41,622 bases of DNA from assembly GCA_017452475.1 (NCBI GenBank), contig JAFTMJ010000090.1:1-41622 (forward strand), read 5' to 3'. Made by a program: the position numbers and the translations under genes. The stretch's first letter is position 1; the number at the start of each line of letters is the position of its first letter. Positions 21,557-27,304 of this stretch are shown here, in pieces. The notes beneath the pieces were generated by a model. It was not told the origin of the DNA and did not search any database. It saw nothing but the letters and a program-made list of their open reading frames with translations. Source of the stretch: Clostridia bacterium (GTDB lineage Bacteria > Bacillota > Clostridia > Oscillospirales > CAG-272).

Positions 21557-23218
21557 TTATTTGGAAAGCATAATGTTAATGGCACTGACAAGGGCCTTGA
21601 TGGAGGCAACGATAATATCGCTGTCCACGCCCGCGCCGAAATATGTTTTGCCATTTGAGGAAATGCTTACATAGGATGCCGCCTGCGAGGTTGTCTTCCC
21701 CTCTAAGGCGTGCTGAGTGTAATTATCGAGAACATAATCAATTCCCGTCAAGCTCTTAATTGCGTTAGACACGGCATCAAGCCTGCCGTTACCCGTTGCC
21801 ACAACGGTTTCTTGCTTGCCGTTATAGACAATTTGGCACTCTGCCTCTCTGCCGCCCTCTATTGATTTGAAGGTTGCATTTTCAACATCTATTACTGTTG
21901 CCAAGTTAACAAAATCACGCATAAAAATTTCGTAAACCTCTTTTGGCTGAAGCTCCCTATGCTCGTGGTCGGAAATGCTTTTGACGTGGTAGCCGAATGC
22001 CTCACGCATTTTCGGTGGGAGGTTGTGGTTAAACTGAGTTTCAAGAATATAACCGATACCGCCCTTGCCTGACTGAGAGTTAATACGGATAACATCCGCC
22101 TCGTAAACCCTGCCCACATCTGTCGGGTCGATTGGAAGATACGGCACGTCCCAGACTCGCCTGCCCTCCTGCCTAAACCTCATACCCTTTGCAATAGCAT
22201 CCTGGTGGGAGCCGCTGAATGCGGCAAAGACGAGCTGACCGCTATATGGCTGCCTTTCGTAAACGTGCATCCTTGTAACCTTTTCATAAACCTCAGTAAT
22301 TTCGGGAAGGTTGGAAAAGTCAAGACCCGGGTCAACACCCTGGGAGTACATATTGAGTGCCAAGGTAATTATGTCAACATTACCCGTTCTTTCGCCGTTG
22401 CCGAAAAGAGTACCCTCAATACGGTCACCGCCTGCCAAAAGTCCCATCTCACTGTCTGCCACGGCACAGCCACGGTCATTGTGGGGATGAAGTGAAATTA
22501 TTATGTTTTCTCTATTCTTTAAGTTTTTGCACATATATTCAACCTGGTTTGCGTACACGTGTGGCATAGAATGTGACACGGTAACGGGCAGGTTGATAAT
22601 CACCTTATTATCGGGTGTCGGCTGCCAAATTTCGATAACCTCGTTGCAAATTTCAGCGGCAAACTCCGGCTCTGTACCCGTAAAGCTCTCGGGAGAGTAC
22701 TCAAAGGTAACCTTGCCCTTTGCCTTTGCCTTATACTTGTTGCAAAGGTTAGCGCCGAACTTGGCAATTTCTATAATTTCCTCCTTGCTCTTTCTGAACA
22801 CCTGCTCACGCTGAGCAACGGAGGTGGAGTTGTATAGGTGAACAACTGCGTGCTTTGCACCGTCAATAGCCTCGAAGGTCTTTGCGATAATATGCTCCCT
22901 TGACTGGGTAAGCACCTGTATTGTAACATCATCGGGAATTAGGTTTTCCTCAATAAGCTTACGGCAAAACTCATATTCGGTTTCGGATGCTGCGGGAAAG
23001 CCGATTTCAATTTCCTTAAAGCCCACCTTGCAAAGAAGCTTAAAAAACTCCAGCTTTTCCTCAAGGCTCATAGGGATAATAAGGGCTTGGTTACCGTCGC
23101 GCAAATCCACGCTGCACCAAATCGGCGGCTTGTCAATGCTCTCCTTCTTCACCCAATCCATCGTTACGCCGCAGGGGGTAAAAAATTGCTTAGAGTATTT
23201 TTCACAGTTTTTCATCAT
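21557..23218 (-). CDS. leuA: 2-isopropylmalate synthase, long form
   Basis: A 553-residue enzyme that condenses acetyl-CoA with 2-oxoisovalerate, the committed step of leucine synthesis. The active-site SVDLRDGNQ is at 36-44, the metal-binding HPHNDRG near 250, and GNGERTGNVDI near 285. Residues about 410-553 are the LeuA allosteric domain, ending with the loop used for leucine feedback. The N-terminal FTPCGVTMDWVKKESIDKPP and the overall length fit the fungal/actinobacterial-like long form (TIGR00970-type) rather than the 510-residue form. It is the first gene of the operon, behind the T-box leader. AAGGAAAC precedes the ATG. Confidence 0.94.
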   Translation of the reverse strand: MMKNCEKYSKQFFTPCGVTMDWVKKESIDKPPIWCSVDLRDGNQALIIPMSLEEKLEFFKLLCKVGFKEIEIGFPAASETEYEFCRKLIEENLIPDDVTIQVLTQSREHIIAKTFEAIDGAKHAVVHLYNSTSVAQREQVFRKSKEEIIEIAKFGANLCNKYKAKAKGKVTFEYSPESFTGTEPEFAAEICNEVIEIWQPTPDNKVIINLPVTVSHSMPHVYANQVEYMCKNLKNRENIIISLHPHNDRGCAVADSEMGLLAGGDRIEGTLFGNGERTGNVDIITLALNMYSQGVDPGLDFSNLPEITEVYEKVTRMHVYERQPYSGQLVFAAFSGSHQDAIAKGMRFRQEGRRVWDVPYLPIDPTDVGRVYEADVIRINSQSGKGGIGYILETQFNHNLPPKMREAFGYHVKSISDHEHRELQPKEVYEIFMRDFVNLATVIDVENATFKSIEGGREAECQIVYNGKQETVVATGNGRLDAVSNAIKSLTGIDYVLDNYTQHALEGKTTSQAASYVSISSNGKTYFGAGVDSDIIVASIKALVSAINIMLSK

Positions 23219-23255: not shown

Positions 23256-23535
23256 AAAAATAAAAATAGCCTCTTTCACACACAAGCCGCAAAAGCCCGT
23301 GCATAAAGAGACGAAGAATTCTCCGTGGTACCACCCTTACTTGACGAAAACGCCCACTCAATTTCTGTCAATCAACAGAATAGCCCTGTAACGGGAGCAC
23401 CCGACTAAGCCTACTGAAATTCGGTTAGCGACTCCGAGATGAGTTAGCCCTGCACCGCATACTGCCTTACACCACCCGACAGCTCTCTAAAATGCTCCTC
23501 AAAGCCTGTTTCTCTTCAACGTCTTTATAATATAT
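23256..23535 (-). promoter_or_regulatory. T-box riboswitch leader, probably sensing tRNA-Leu
   Basis: On the minus strand 23323-23338 reads AAGGGTGGTACCACGG, the conserved T-box that binds the tRNA acceptor end. Upstream are Stem I features (AGAGAGCTG near 23485, then GGGTGGTG), and a candidate specifier codon CTC at 23441-23443 in the context AACTCATC, giving leucine. Downstream a terminator stem, GTCTCTTT (23305-23312) with AAAGAGGC (23269-23276), is followed by TATTTTTATTTTT. Uncharged tRNA-Leu would favour the antiterminator and allow transcription of leuA and the genes behind it. The specifier choice is by pattern; ATC (Ile) two codons later is the main alternative. Confidence 0.9.
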
Positions 23536-23630: not shown

Positions 23631-23659
23631 AGAAAAGCGGGCAAAATGCCCGCTTTTCT
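23631..23659. terminator. Terminator after the isomerase-thioredoxin lipoprotein
   Basis: AGAAAAGCGGGCA and TGCCCGCTTTTCT form a perfect 13-bp stem with an AAA loop, 17 bases after the lipoprotein stop. The T-rich 3' side of the stem replaces a separate T-run, and by symmetry it works on both strands. Confidence 0.75.
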
Positions 23660-23676: not shown

Positions 23677-25473
23677 TTATTCTTCCTTGCTTTCCGTGTT
23701 TTGGCTCTCAGAGCCTCCCGATATTCCGTCAAGCTTATCCTCTAAATCGCCAATTATATCTCCCATATTTTCCTTGTCCTCATTGGTTAGCCCAAGGCTA
23801 CCGTACACCCTATCAAGAGGAAGGTTGCTCTCAATTGCCTCCACTAACTCCTCATAGGTCATAGCGCCCACCTTTTTGTATACGATTAAGCCGTTTTCAT
23901 CAAGGATAACCGTGTACGGATAGTAGCCTGCACCGCCAAGCAGGTTATAGTACATATCCGTGCTATACGGATCATTTTTATCCTTTGGATAATCCTTTAG
24001 GAATATCATATCGGAGCTTGCAAAATTGTTCTCGACATATTGAGCCGCTGTACCGTAGCCGTTTGTGGAGTGAACAGCAAAAACGGTTAATTTATCCTTG
24101 TATTCGGTTGCCACCCTATCAAAGTACGGTAGCTCAACAAGGCAGTAAGGACACCAGGTACCCCAAAAGTTAATTACTGTCAGCTTGCCCACATTCCTTA
24201 CAGGGTCGATAATACTGCCCGATGCGCCAAGCTCATCAAAAATTTCAAGGTCAAGGCTTGGGCAAAGGTTGCCGAAGCTGCTTCCCTCCTCCAGCTTTTC
24301 CCTTTCCGCAAGGACTGTGCTGATAGACTTATAGGTTGCAGCGCGCTCACTGATTTTAATTGCGCCTGCAATACACTTGTCAACTAATTCAAAAAGAACA
24401 TTTTCGTACACATAGGAATAGCCCAAATCATCCACAAGCTCCTTTGCCCTTTGCATAGCAACGGCGGATGAAGCACCCAAGCCCATATAGTAGTCCTTAT
24501 AGTATGCAAGGAGCCTGCCTGTTTCCTCCTTTAGCTGCTCCTCTGTAACGGCAATGCCCTCTGCCTGGGCGATGGCATAATAAACCATATCGGTTTTAAG
24601 GGTTTGCTTAATATATTCCTCCCTTGTCATATTGTAGTTACGCAATATGTACTCATCAAGGGTCATAGAATACTTCTTTTCAAAGTCATCCTCCATAGCA
24701 AGAAGCTCTGCTGCCAAATCATTATACTCCCTCTCGGGGTAGCTTGCAAAAACAGCATTTTCCTTTATATAGTCAATGAGCTTGGAAAACGCAATACTGC
24801 TCTTAACGGAAGCTTCAAATTCCTTGGCTGTCTTATATTCGGTATATTTTTCCACAAAGCTGTCCCCATATATCGGGGTATCAAAAATAGACATAAGAGC
24901 TATTTCAAACATTACGGTTTTGCCTGCCAAATCCTTCGCAAAATAGTCCTTCGGGAAGGTGGCGTACACCTCCTTAAGCTCACCGATTGACATACCCACA
25001 ATACCTGTTTCAAACTCGGAAATGGAAAGACCTGCGCCTAAGAAAACGCCGTAGCTATCGTTTTCATCAAATGTTACCGCCCTGCCCTCCTCATCGAGCA
25101 AAACATCGTTGCTTTCATCAAGCATATAGCCAACATAAGAAACGGTTACAACATCGCCCACAACGCACTTTAACCTCTTAGACTTAACCGCCTTAGACAT
25201 TATAAAATTGTCGATTTGGCGCTGAACATCGTCAAGCTCCACGCCCACACTATAGTCATTGTAGCTTGGCAGGGTAACATAGTCACTCATATTGTATTGG
25301 TAGTCACCCTCGCCTGCGGGCACTTGAACATCCGTAATACCTCCGCCCTGTGCTGAGGAGCCTGTGCTACTCGGTGCACTACTGCTTGAGGACGGTGTTT
25401 CATCCCCGCCGCAGGATGCCAAAAGACACACTGCAAACAATATAGATAAAATTAATATTAAAACTTTTTTCAT
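23677..25473 (-). CDS. Lipoprotein fusing a trigger-factor/FKBP-like isomerase to a TlpA-type thioredoxin
   Basis: A 598-residue surface lipoprotein. Residues 1-21 are a signal peptide with lipobox LLASC (C21), then a Ser-rich linker to about 45. Residues 105-198 (VGDVVTVSYVGYMLDE ... AGKTVMFEIALMSI) match the FKBP-type isomerase domain in the form seen in trigger factor. Residues 205-375 are a long helical arm like the trigger factor C-terminal chaperone domain. Residues 400-555 are a thioredoxin fold with WGTWCPYC (C441, C444) and a cis-Pro-type GYYPYTVILDENG, as in TlpA/ResA. It could fold and redox-process exported proteins. The Cys pair CPYC, rather than the CEPC or CGHC types, is noted. 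AGGAGG-like CGGAGG precedes the ATG. The reading frame is continuous. Confidence 0.85.
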   Translation of the reverse strand: MKKVLILILSILFAVCLLASCGGDETPSSSSSAPSSTGSSAQGGGITDVQVPAGEGDYQYNMSDYVTLPSYNDYSVGVELDDVQRQIDNFIMSKAVKSKRLKCVVGDVVTVSYVGYMLDESNDVLLDEEGRAVTFDENDSYGVFLGAGLSISEFETGIVGMSIGELKEVYATFPKDYFAKDLAGKTVMFEIALMSIFDTPIYGDSFVEKYTEYKTAKEFEASVKSSIAFSKLIDYIKENAVFASYPEREYNDLAAELLAMEDDFEKKYSMTLDEYILRNYNMTREEYIKQTLKTDMVYYAIAQAEGIAVTEEQLKEETGRLLAYYKDYYMGLGASSAVAMQRAKELVDDLGYSYVYENVLFELVDKCIAGAIKISERAATYKSISTVLAEREKLEEGSSFGNLCPSLDLEIFDELGASGSIIDPVRNVGKLTVINFWGTWCPYCLVELPYFDRVATEYKDKLTVFAVHSTNGYGTAAQYVENNFASSDMIFLKDYPKDKNDPYSTDMYYNLLGGAGYYPYTVILDENGLIVYKKVGAMTYEELVEAIESNLPLDRVYGSLGLTNEDKENMGDIIGDLEDKLDGISGGSESQNTESKEE

Positions 25474-25495: not shown

Positions 25496-25524
25496 ATTTT
25501 ATCATACATAACGCTTTTTTGCAA
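25496..25524 (-). promoter_or_regulatory. Candidate promoter of the isomerase-thioredoxin lipoprotein
   Basis: On the minus strand TTGCAA (25519-25524), 17-bp spacer, TAAAAT (25496-25501). The start codon follows about 15 bases after the expected transcript start. Confidence 0.55.
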
Positions 25525-25540
25525 CACATTTTAAATATAT

Positions 25541-25566
25541 AAAAAAGGGTGAGATTGCTCCCACCC
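25541..25566 (-). terminator. Terminator after the phosphoglucomutase gene
   Basis: On the minus strand GGGTG-GGAG pairs back to CTC-ACCC (25547-25566) and is followed directly by TTTTTT (25541-25546), six bases after the stop at 25572. Confidence 0.8.
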
Positions 25567-25571
25567 TGTTG

Positions 25572-27248
25572 TTAAGCGTTAATTATCGAATTAATGATAT
25601 CCTGACGCGCCTTTAGCACCATTTCAGCCTCAGCCTTATTTTCACCCTTTACGGAGTAGTAAACCTTAATCTTTGGCTCTGTGCCCGAGGGACGAATAGC
25701 AATCCAAGAGGAGTCCTCAAACACGAACTTTAGCACATCAGCCTTAGGTAGGTCACCAATGCCAACGGTATAATCGTTTACAACTGCAATATTCGGCATT
25801 AGGCTCTTGCCCTTTTCCCTCATTTCCTTCATAATTGCCTGTATCCTCTCAACACCGTCAATTCCCTTAAGTGTGTAAGAGTCAAGCTTATCAAGGAAGT
25901 AGCCGTATTTTGCGTAAATCTCCTCCATTACATCAACCAAGGTCTTACCCTGATTCTTGTAATAGCTTGCCATTTCGCAAATGAGCATCGATGCAACAAC
26001 CGCATCCTTATCCCTTGCGTGGTTGCCCACTAAGTAGCCGTAGCTTTCCTCGTAGCCGATTACGAACTCGCCATTACCCTTTGTATCAAATTGGTTCATA
26101 ATATCGCCGATAAACTTAAAGCCTGTAAGAACCTCGCAAACCTTTAAGCCGTTCATCTTGGCAATGATTGCGCCAAGCTCGCTTGTTACAATTGTCTTAA
26201 TAACCGTGGATTTTTCGTTAAGCTTTGCCTTGTTCATCTTAATAACATAATCAACAAGCAAGGCGCCAACCTGGTTACCTGTAAAGAGCTTCATACCGTC
26301 CTTGGTGTTTACCGCAATTCCAACACGGTCACAGTCAGGGTCGGTACCTAAGATAAGGTCAGCATTTTGCTCCCGGCAAAGCTTAATTCCAATGCTTAAA
26401 GCCTCCGCATTTTCGGGGTTTGGAGAAACTACCGTTGGGAAATCACCGTTCTTCTCCTCCTGCTCCTTAACAACCGTAACATTGTAGCCAAGGTCGGAAA
26501 GGACACGCCTAACAGGCTTGTTGCCTGTACCGTGAAGTGGAGTATATACTATTTTTGCGCTCTTTTCGCCAATGTCGTGAGCCTGCTTTTTAACATTTGC
26601 AATAAAGCTCTCGTAAACCTCGTTTGGCACGCTCTTCAAAAGTCCGCAAGCTCTTGCCTCATTTTCATCCATAACCTCGATGGCAGGAATGTCTGTAATT
26701 GCGTTTACATAGCCGATAATCGCATTTGCATCATCAATCAAAACCTGGCAGCCTGTTTCGTCATAAACCTTATAGCCGTTATACTCCCTTGGGTTGTGGC
26801 TGGCAGTAACAACTATACCGCCAACGCAGTTAAGCTCCCTTACTGTAAAGGAAAGGGTCGGGGTTGGCATAAGCTCATCGTACAAAAATGCGGGGATGCC
26901 GCTTTTTGCCATAACAAGCGCCGCTTCCTTTGCAAAGGTATCGGAATTATTACGGGAGTCGTAGCCGATGGCAACGCCGCGCTTAACCTCCGCCCCGTAC
27001 TTATCAAGAAGATAGTTTGCAAAGCCCTGTGTAGCTTTTCTTATGATATATTTATTCATTCTGTTGGTGCCTGCACCCATAACGCCGCGCAAGCCGCCTG
27101 TGCCGAACTCAAGATCTCTCCAGAAGCGATCCTCTATTTCCTCGTTTGAAAGGTCTGCCCCGAGCTCAAGCCTTGTTGCCTCATCAAACCTTTTGTCCTC
27201 TTTCCAAAGCTTATAAGTGTTAAGAATTTCCTGTGATAGCTGCTTCAT
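25572..27248 (-). CDS. pgcA: Phospho-sugar mutase (alpha-phosphoglucomutase type)
   Basis: A 558-residue member of the alpha-D-phosphohexomutase superfamily, expected to interconvert glucose 1- and 6-phosphate for glycogen, cell-wall and exopolysaccharide precursors. The phosphoserine is in TASHNPREYNGYK (S150). The metal-binding loop is GTDPDCDR (D303, D305, D307), a sugar-binding GYEESYGY follows near 390, and the phosphate-binding RPSGTEPKIKVYY is near the C-terminus. The length and GTGGLRG at 49-55 fit the PgcA/phosphoglucomutase-2-like branch. GGAG precedes the ATG at 27248; an earlier start would add 14 residues with no ribosome binding site. Mannose specificity cannot be excluded. Confidence 0.9.
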   Translation of the reverse strand: MKQLSQEILNTYKLWKEDKRFDEATRLELGADLSNEEIEDRFWRDLEFGTGGLRGVMGAGTNRMNKYIIRKATQGFANYLLDKYGAEVKRGVAIGYDSRNNSDTFAKEAALVMAKSGIPAFLYDELMPTPTLSFTVRELNCVGGIVVTASHNPREYNGYKVYDETGCQVLIDDANAIIGYVNAITDIPAIEVMDENEARACGLLKSVPNEVYESFIANVKKQAHDIGEKSAKIVYTPLHGTGNKPVRRVLSDLGYNVTVVKEQEEKNGDFPTVVSPNPENAEALSIGIKLCREQNADLILGTDPDCDRVGIAVNTKDGMKLFTGNQVGALLVDYVIKMNKAKLNEKSTVIKTIVTSELGAIIAKMNGLKVCEVLTGFKFIGDIMNQFDTKGNGEFVIGYEESYGYLVGNHARDKDAVVASMLICEMASYYKNQGKTLVDVMEEIYAKYGYFLDKLDSYTLKGIDGVERIQAIMKEMREKGKSLMPNIAVVNDYTVGIGDLPKADVLKFVFEDSSWIAIRPSGTEPKIKVYYSVKGENKAEAEMVLKARQDIINSIINA

Positions 27249-27276
27249 TTCAAAATCTCCTTCTTTTATCAAAATA

Positions 27277-27304
27277 AGGGGCAGGGGCATCTATGCCCGC
27301 CCCT
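27277..27304 (-). terminator. Terminator after the aconitase gene
   Basis: AGGGGC-GGGCAT pairs with ATGCCC-CTGCCCCT (27277-27304) and is followed on the minus strand by TATTTT. It lies about 40 bases after the aconitase stop. Confidence 0.75.

Follow-up and report, generated by a model that had tools for sequence, protein, structure and literature searches.

ResA, StoA, TlpA and Etrx thioredoxins are single-domain reductases, and many of them are fed by donors of the CcdA type. In the pneumococcus, the Etrx lipoproteins are reported to serve MsrAB2 (PMC3914529). A different kind of lipid-anchored protein is PrsA, described in one account as ubiquitous in gram-positive bacteria, which combines an isomerase with a chaperone region for exported proteins (PMC12445088). 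In the window, by which we mean the whole stretch of 41,622 nucleotides that was analysed, one gene encodes a predicted lipoprotein that joins a trigger-factor-like half to a thioredoxin. From the amino terminus, the order is a signal peptide with lipobox, an FKBP-type isomerase, a trigger-factor (TF) arm, a linker and a TlpA/ResA-like thioredoxin with the active site CPYC:

23677..25473, minus strand: TF-thioredoxin fusion lipoprotein, 598 aa (open reading frame with ATG start; matches in Pfam, in NCBIfam and to PDB sequences; both halves also present in relatives from G204, G214 and G196)
25411..25473, minus strand: signal peptide with lipobox LASC (residues 18-21) and predicted lipidated Cys21 (read from the sequence)
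24886..25167, minus strand: FKBP/trigger-factor-type PPIase domain, residues 103-196 (Pfam FKBP_C; model against 1t11 and FKBPs; invariant aromatics)
24340..24864, minus strand: trigger-factor arm, the helical chaperone region, residues 204-378 (matched by the tig model as far as residue 325; pLDDT; 1w26 alignment)
23815..24285, minus strand: TlpA/ResA-like thioredoxin domain, residues 397-553 (Pfam Redoxin; fit to ResA 4nmu)
24142..24153, minus strand: CXXC active site CPYC, residues 441-444 (read from the sequence; both cysteines invariant in all four fusions, middle dipeptide variable)
23680..23814, minus strand: charged, low-confidence C-terminal tail, residues 554-598 (absent from the other three fusions in the alignment; block-mean pLDDT 52-75)

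The first-pass annotation had seen an FKBP-type isomerase, a helical arm and a CPYC thioredoxin on one lipobox chain, and Pfam, NCBIfam and the structure models confirm this. The signal peptide carries a lipobox cysteine, and S20 and C21 are invariant in an alignment of the four fusions with an unfused protein from G218 (the window's genome is G000; other G numbers such as these denote further genomes of the same genus). An outer-face location in a monoderm host is predicted on the strength of the lipobox and of relatives among the Clostridia. The best supported of the functional readings, which we somewhat favour on balance, is that of a foldase anchored by lipid on the outer face, which would hold exported chains, act as a prolyl isomerase on them and reduce or shuffle disulfides, with electrons probably supplied by a polyferredoxin.

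A database search for the same architecture, which had been proposed as a check, found three other genomes of the genus (G204, G214 and G196) that keep the order of lipobox, isomerase, arm and thioredoxin, and the fusion is therefore neither a chance product nor the result of a chimaeric contig. An assembly chimaera or a frameshift was considered and ruled out, as the order recurs in three other assemblies at about 50% identity; the individual proteins are 49-51% identical to that of the window. In the G196 copy the first residues are missing because the contig begins there. A literature search covering titles and the starts of abstracts, with subscription journals mostly outside it, found no description of the TF-thioredoxin combination or of exported trigger factors, in line with the first-pass annotation, which knew no characterised protein with this order. 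The fusion is real and conserved in a small clade, and its pairing of two known families is new as far as searched.

The clade is indeed small. Of the 29 genomes analysed in the genus, 4 have the fusion. The search did not find it in the remaining 25, which include 9 of the 11 most complete (mean completeness is about 83% without the fusion and 81% for the four with it), and the genus can therefore do without it. Among the matches listed for 196 genomes of the family, 394 of the order and 398 of the phylum, none outside the window's genome spans both halves; these sets are samples of larger groups, with 6 candidates scored per genome in the family and 3 in the order and phylum, and the genus contributes 4 of its 29 genomes to the family sample, where the window's is the sole one with the fusion. 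A contig search with exact peptide patterns, which gives a lower bound, found at least one fusion (L064, which is the G196 copy) among 80 of 315 loci. Viral contigs searched for trigger-factor-like sequences gave 121 pattern matches and no relative, and plasmids gave 22 records with partial matches, none at 80% coverage. Of the 8 plasmid matches listed, the annotation is tig in 4 and an unnamed protein of Eubacterium/Lachnospira eligens in 2, while the last 2 have none.

In the trigger-factor half, Pfam FKBP_C matches residues 105-193 (E 1.1e-8, above the cut-off) and Trigger_C matches residues 251-325 (E 0.007, below the cut-off). The NCBIfam trigger factor model TIGR00115 covers residues 75-325 (E 9e-25), scoring 87 bits against an equivalog cut-off of 180, and the fusion protein is therefore called trigger-factor-like and not a trigger factor. 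The match starts at position 119 of the 410 in the profile; the ribosome-binding N-terminal domain is absent, and the lipobox signal peptide stands there instead. Both profile and model give an FKBP-type isomerase followed by a helical arm, in the order of trigger factor. When a profile made from 14 isomerase-plus-arm sequences was compared with the PDB, it matched nine distinct sequences at E up to 0.01, of which seven are named trigger factor, one is 7zgi (an entry titled as a chloroplast trigger factor), and one is FKBP14 at E 0.007. The whole-chain model was built from 33 alignment rows with a mean pLDDT of 73.5 and a pTM of only 0.47, a value at which the model does not fix how thioredoxin and arm are placed with respect to each other. 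Here, block-mean pLDDT is 85-94 for arm residues 221-370, while the isomerase is weak, with block means of 31-70 and just two alignment rows covering it. As the VIA-align rows for the whole chain covered the thioredoxin only, the TF half was folded and searched alone. This run used 3 alignment rows and gave one usable model of five, with a mean pLDDT of 65.9 and isomerase blocks of 50-84 (the remaining four had mean pLDDT of 43-46). With this model, the best eight Foldseek chains are all trigger factors, with 1w26 at E 7e-11. In VIA-align, model residues 44-365 fit the E. coli trigger factor 1w26 with Z 11.8 over 259 residues and an rmsd of 13.9 A, a large value that presumably comes from differently placed domains; the fit to 1t11 has Z 11.1, and to FKBPs about Z 10. 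The tool cautions that for helical parts a Z under about 13 may be nothing unusual, and because 11.8 lies in that range, the profile evidence matters for this half. The earlier reading of the middle part as a trigger-factor arm has thus held up, since it is both matched by profile and modelled as such.

For the thioredoxin half, Pfam Redoxin matches residues 429-539 (E 1.8e-10, above the cut-off), and a thioredoxin fold with CXXC and cis-proline, as in TlpA and ResA, is found. Block-mean pLDDT in the whole-chain model is 85-98. The domain fits 4nmu, the Bacillus thiol-disulfide oxidoreductase ResA, with Z 19.9 and an rmsd of 1.7 A over 139 residues, and Etrx1 and Etrx2 are also among its structural matches. 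The NCBIfam ResA model covers residues 381-549 with 44 of the 170 bits needed, and the other curated cut-offs are missed as well (StoA 39 of 210, dsbE 36 of 123, TlpA 23 of 230 bits), which makes the domain a fold-level relative without a named subfamily. The CPYC motif that the first-pass annotation had singled out is real in the window's protein and does not extend to the family, as the corresponding motifs of the three relatives are CVPC, CGPC and CTPC; for the same reason its use as an oxidase signature was dropped.

The active site of DsbA is CPHC. CPYC resembles it, and the fusion could accordingly be imagined as a DsbA-like oxidase whose thioredoxin makes disulfides in exported proteins while the TF half isomerises prolines. 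This is improbable given a fold of the ResA/TlpA kind, the variable dipeptide of the other fusions, and a search for VKOR that gave no match in the window's genome. Because CPYC varies among the fusions and the fold is ResA/TlpA-like, reduction or shuffling of disulfides is more likely than oxidation.

It is worth looking at what the four fusions have kept. Invariant columns number 171 of 524 gap-free ones (33%), with the isomerase the most conserved domain (48/96) and the arm the least (40/175); the thioredoxin has 57/156. The aromatics Y113, F135, F154, Y177 and F189, assigned to the isomerase pocket on the basis of the FKBP and trigger-factor literature, are all five invariant in all four fusions (within-domain chance 0.028), and so are all four of the thioredoxin residues W440, C441, C444 and P519 (within-domain chance 0.017). 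The conservation of these chosen pocket and active-site positions gives the foldase reading modest support. C103 and C404 are likewise invariant in the four fusions. Cys103 was considered as a fusion-specific redox link and dropped, as 7 of 33 unfused TF rows share it (one row starts too late).

The same counts bear on another explanation, in which the thioredoxin would be the working part, a surface thiol reductase for particular redox partners on the model of the pneumococcal Etrx lipoproteins, and the TF half a spacer or docking arm. The least conserved part is indeed the arm, when its 40/175 is set against 57/156 in the thioredoxin, and the structural matches include Etrx1 and Etrx2. In the tree, the four thioredoxin halves form one clade (support 100/97), which adjoins polyferredoxin-borne and stand-alone thioredoxins at 89/92, below the starred level, and this grouping also speaks for a surface reductase. 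We nevertheless consider it rather unlikely, as a mere spacer would have no need of an isomerase that is the most conserved domain and keeps its pocket aromatics.

The surroundings of the gene in the window are as follows:

25572..27290, minus strand: phosphoglucomutase-like gene (pgm), upstream neighbour (the same neighbour in G204 and G214)
25546..25567, minus strand: terminator-like hairpin after pgm, between pgm and the fusion gene (consensus scan)
25496..25524, minus strand: promoter-like site TTGCAA-17-TAAAAT just upstream of the fusion gene (consensus scan only)
23631..23659, minus strand: terminator-like hairpin of 13 pairs after the fusion gene (consensus scan)
21557..23218, minus strand: leuA-like gene, downstream neighbour (the same in G204, G214 and G196; also in G218 with an unfused gene)

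The two neighbours are what we take to be pgm and leuA from their sequences. Ahead of leuA there is a T-box leader (window 23304-23528, Rfam RF00230, 112 bits). The fusion gene looks monocistronic, because a hairpin parts it from pgm, a promoter-like site lies upstream, and a hairpin and then the T-box leader follow it; the consensus scan finds 17 such promoter-like sites in the stretch against a mean of 5.4 in shuffles. The order pgm-fusion-leuA-ilvB is shared by the window's genome, G204 and G214, and in G196 leuA follows the fusion while the pgm contig stops shortly after pgm. In these three genomes, pgm is 90-93% and leuA 93-96% identical to that of the window (leuA of G196 is partial). 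By pgm, they are the nearest of 25 genomes with a close match (93, 91 and 90%, the next 87%); by leuA, they have 93-96%, the next being 92% for a G217 fragment, whose pgm is only 81%, and then 89% in G211. With its own 49-51% beside these values, the fusion is evolving fast.

Fast evolution and presence in just four genomes of the genus would both be expected of a functionally unimportant gene fusion that awaits removal by drift. Such an explanation is very improbable, as four lineages in which about half of the residues have diverged keep one frame, both active sites and the linker.

How the fusion arose is suggested by the region upstream of leuA. Among 27 such places, the fusion is found in 4, an unfused trigger-factor-like gene in 2 (G218 and G199), a gene that is presumably ilvE-like in 14, and other genes in 4, with 3 unreadable. 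The second leuA copy of G204 (L206, G204:C68), which is 87% identical to the window's leuA, has an ilvE-like gene upstream. The unfused TF lipoprotein of G218 (L041) is 511 aa long, with two InlB-type (List_Bact) repeats, one isomerase and the arm, and is 40-44% identical to the fusions. As this protein lies upstream of leuA and terminates where the linker of the fusion starts, it suggests that the thioredoxin was added onto an existing exported trigger-factor protein. In the tree of the TF halves, the four fusions form one clade (99/99), and G218 is not firmly joined to them.

Both halves also exist as separate genes in the window's genome. There is a canonical-looking cytosolic trigger factor of 426 aa without a signal peptide (L004), a separate trigger-factor lipoprotein (L002), and a NapH-like polyferredoxin that ends in a sister thioredoxin (L003). 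In each of the four fusion genomes there is a TF lipoprotein besides the fusion, and also a polyferredoxin-thioredoxin. In the genus, TF-like lipoproteins with an arm are found in 28 of 29 genomes (the exception is G200; in G203, L061 is truncated by its contig), and polyferredoxin-thioredoxins in at least 16 of 29 among the loci examined. In the window's genome, the fusion and the polyferredoxin-thioredoxin are on different contigs, and their thioredoxin domains are 50% identical. DsbD_TM, the domain of DsbD/CcdA, was found in none of the 29 genomes of the genus, and so in none of its 11 most complete ones; the control was positive in 10 of 14 genomes. Since the search for CcdA/DsbD gave no match in the genus, the NapH-like polyferredoxin is proposed as the probable electron donor of the fusion thioredoxin, the whole basis of this link being thioredoxin-domain similarity and co-presence. 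The polyferredoxin-thioredoxin is thereby a possible substitute for CcdA/DsbD, and the literature search found no description of it.

Genes for a NapH-like polyferredoxin with a TlpA-like thioredoxin (L003 382-1986; L146 2913-4517) are frequent in related Clostridia, and polyferredoxins with two thioredoxins occur in L066, L073 and L080. Just upstream of one polyferredoxin-thioredoxin (L146 1956-2906) is a gene for a 316-aa protein with a C-terminal CD1871A-family CXXC motif domain. Large proteins of 930-1100 aa with a thioredoxin-like stretch in the first third are also encoded near polyferredoxin-thioredoxins (L146 9267-12569, L069, L075, L078, L096, L134, L139); that of L146 9267-12569 has a Pfam redoxin match and a lipobox-like signal at its start.

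Taken as a foldase, the fusion would work as follows. An exported trigger-factor-like lipoprotein would have gained a TlpA/ResA-type thioredoxin at its C-terminus. The TF half, consisting of isomerase and arm without the ribosome-binding domain, would bind unfolded exported chains and isomerise their prolyl bonds. The tethered thioredoxin would then reduce or shuffle wrong disulfides of the same captured clients, and would itself probably be re-reduced by the NapH-like polyferredoxin that carries the sister thioredoxin at its own end. With predicted isomerase, holdase and reductase activities at a predicted surface location, the protein could be what the first-pass annotation called an all-in-one folding factor, and we infer the same. 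If this is true, a single extracytoplasmic chaperone would combine proline isomerisation with disulfide chemistry, and the fusion points to the polyferredoxin as a possible alternative to CcdA/DsbD.

The genus has a further peculiarity. Parvulin (PF00639) was found in 0 of its 29 genomes, the window's included, with the control positive in 8 of 14. The search does work on close relatives, since it finds parvulin in 158 of the 196 genomes of the family sample, from 62 of 71 genera; the 38 genomes without it include this genus's 4. Some genomes of the family, for example G159, have both this kind of trigger-factor-like gene and parvulin, which counts against a simple replacement. In other genera of the family, two or three trigger-factor-like genes can be adjacent (L021, L025, L029, L030). 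A tentative and rather doubtful proposal is that the genus swapped PrsA for exported TF lipoproteins and that one clade went on to make a PDI-like foldase on one chain (holdase, prolyl isomerase and disulfide reductase), fed by a polyferredoxin and not by CcdA/DsbD. A genus that gave no parvulin match and is rich in exported TF lipoproteins would be a natural test of whether the TF arm can do the job of PrsA outside the cell, and this may be a more important point than the fusion itself.

Compared with known systems, the fusion takes something from each. With trigger factor (TIGR00115; E. coli 1w26) it shares, colinearly by profile and model, the FKBP-type isomerase followed by C-terminal helical arms, but it has no ribosome-binding N-terminal domain and instead has a signal peptide, a lipobox and a trailing thioredoxin. 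The unfused TF-like lipoproteins of the genus (L002, L041) have the lipobox, isomerase and arm, and L041 also lies upstream of leuA, but they are without the thioredoxin, and 21 of 33 rows have a second FKBP-like match in front. Like PrsA, the fusion is predicted to be a lipid-anchored isomerase with a chaperone region, whereas PrsA has a parvulin (Rotamase) domain in place of FKBP, and PF00639 is not among the Pfam matches of the fusion. NapH-like polyferredoxin-thioredoxins resemble it in a thioredoxin that is 50% identical in the same genome, and in many cases in an extra Cys ahead of the domain, but their thioredoxin is carried by a membrane 4Fe-4S protein and not by a foldase. Finally, the fold, the WCxxC, the cis-proline and the extracytoplasmic anchoring (predicted here) are those of ResA, StoA, TlpA and Etrx; unlike in these, the thioredoxin of the fusion comes from a genus with no DsbD_TM match and is attached to a chaperone.
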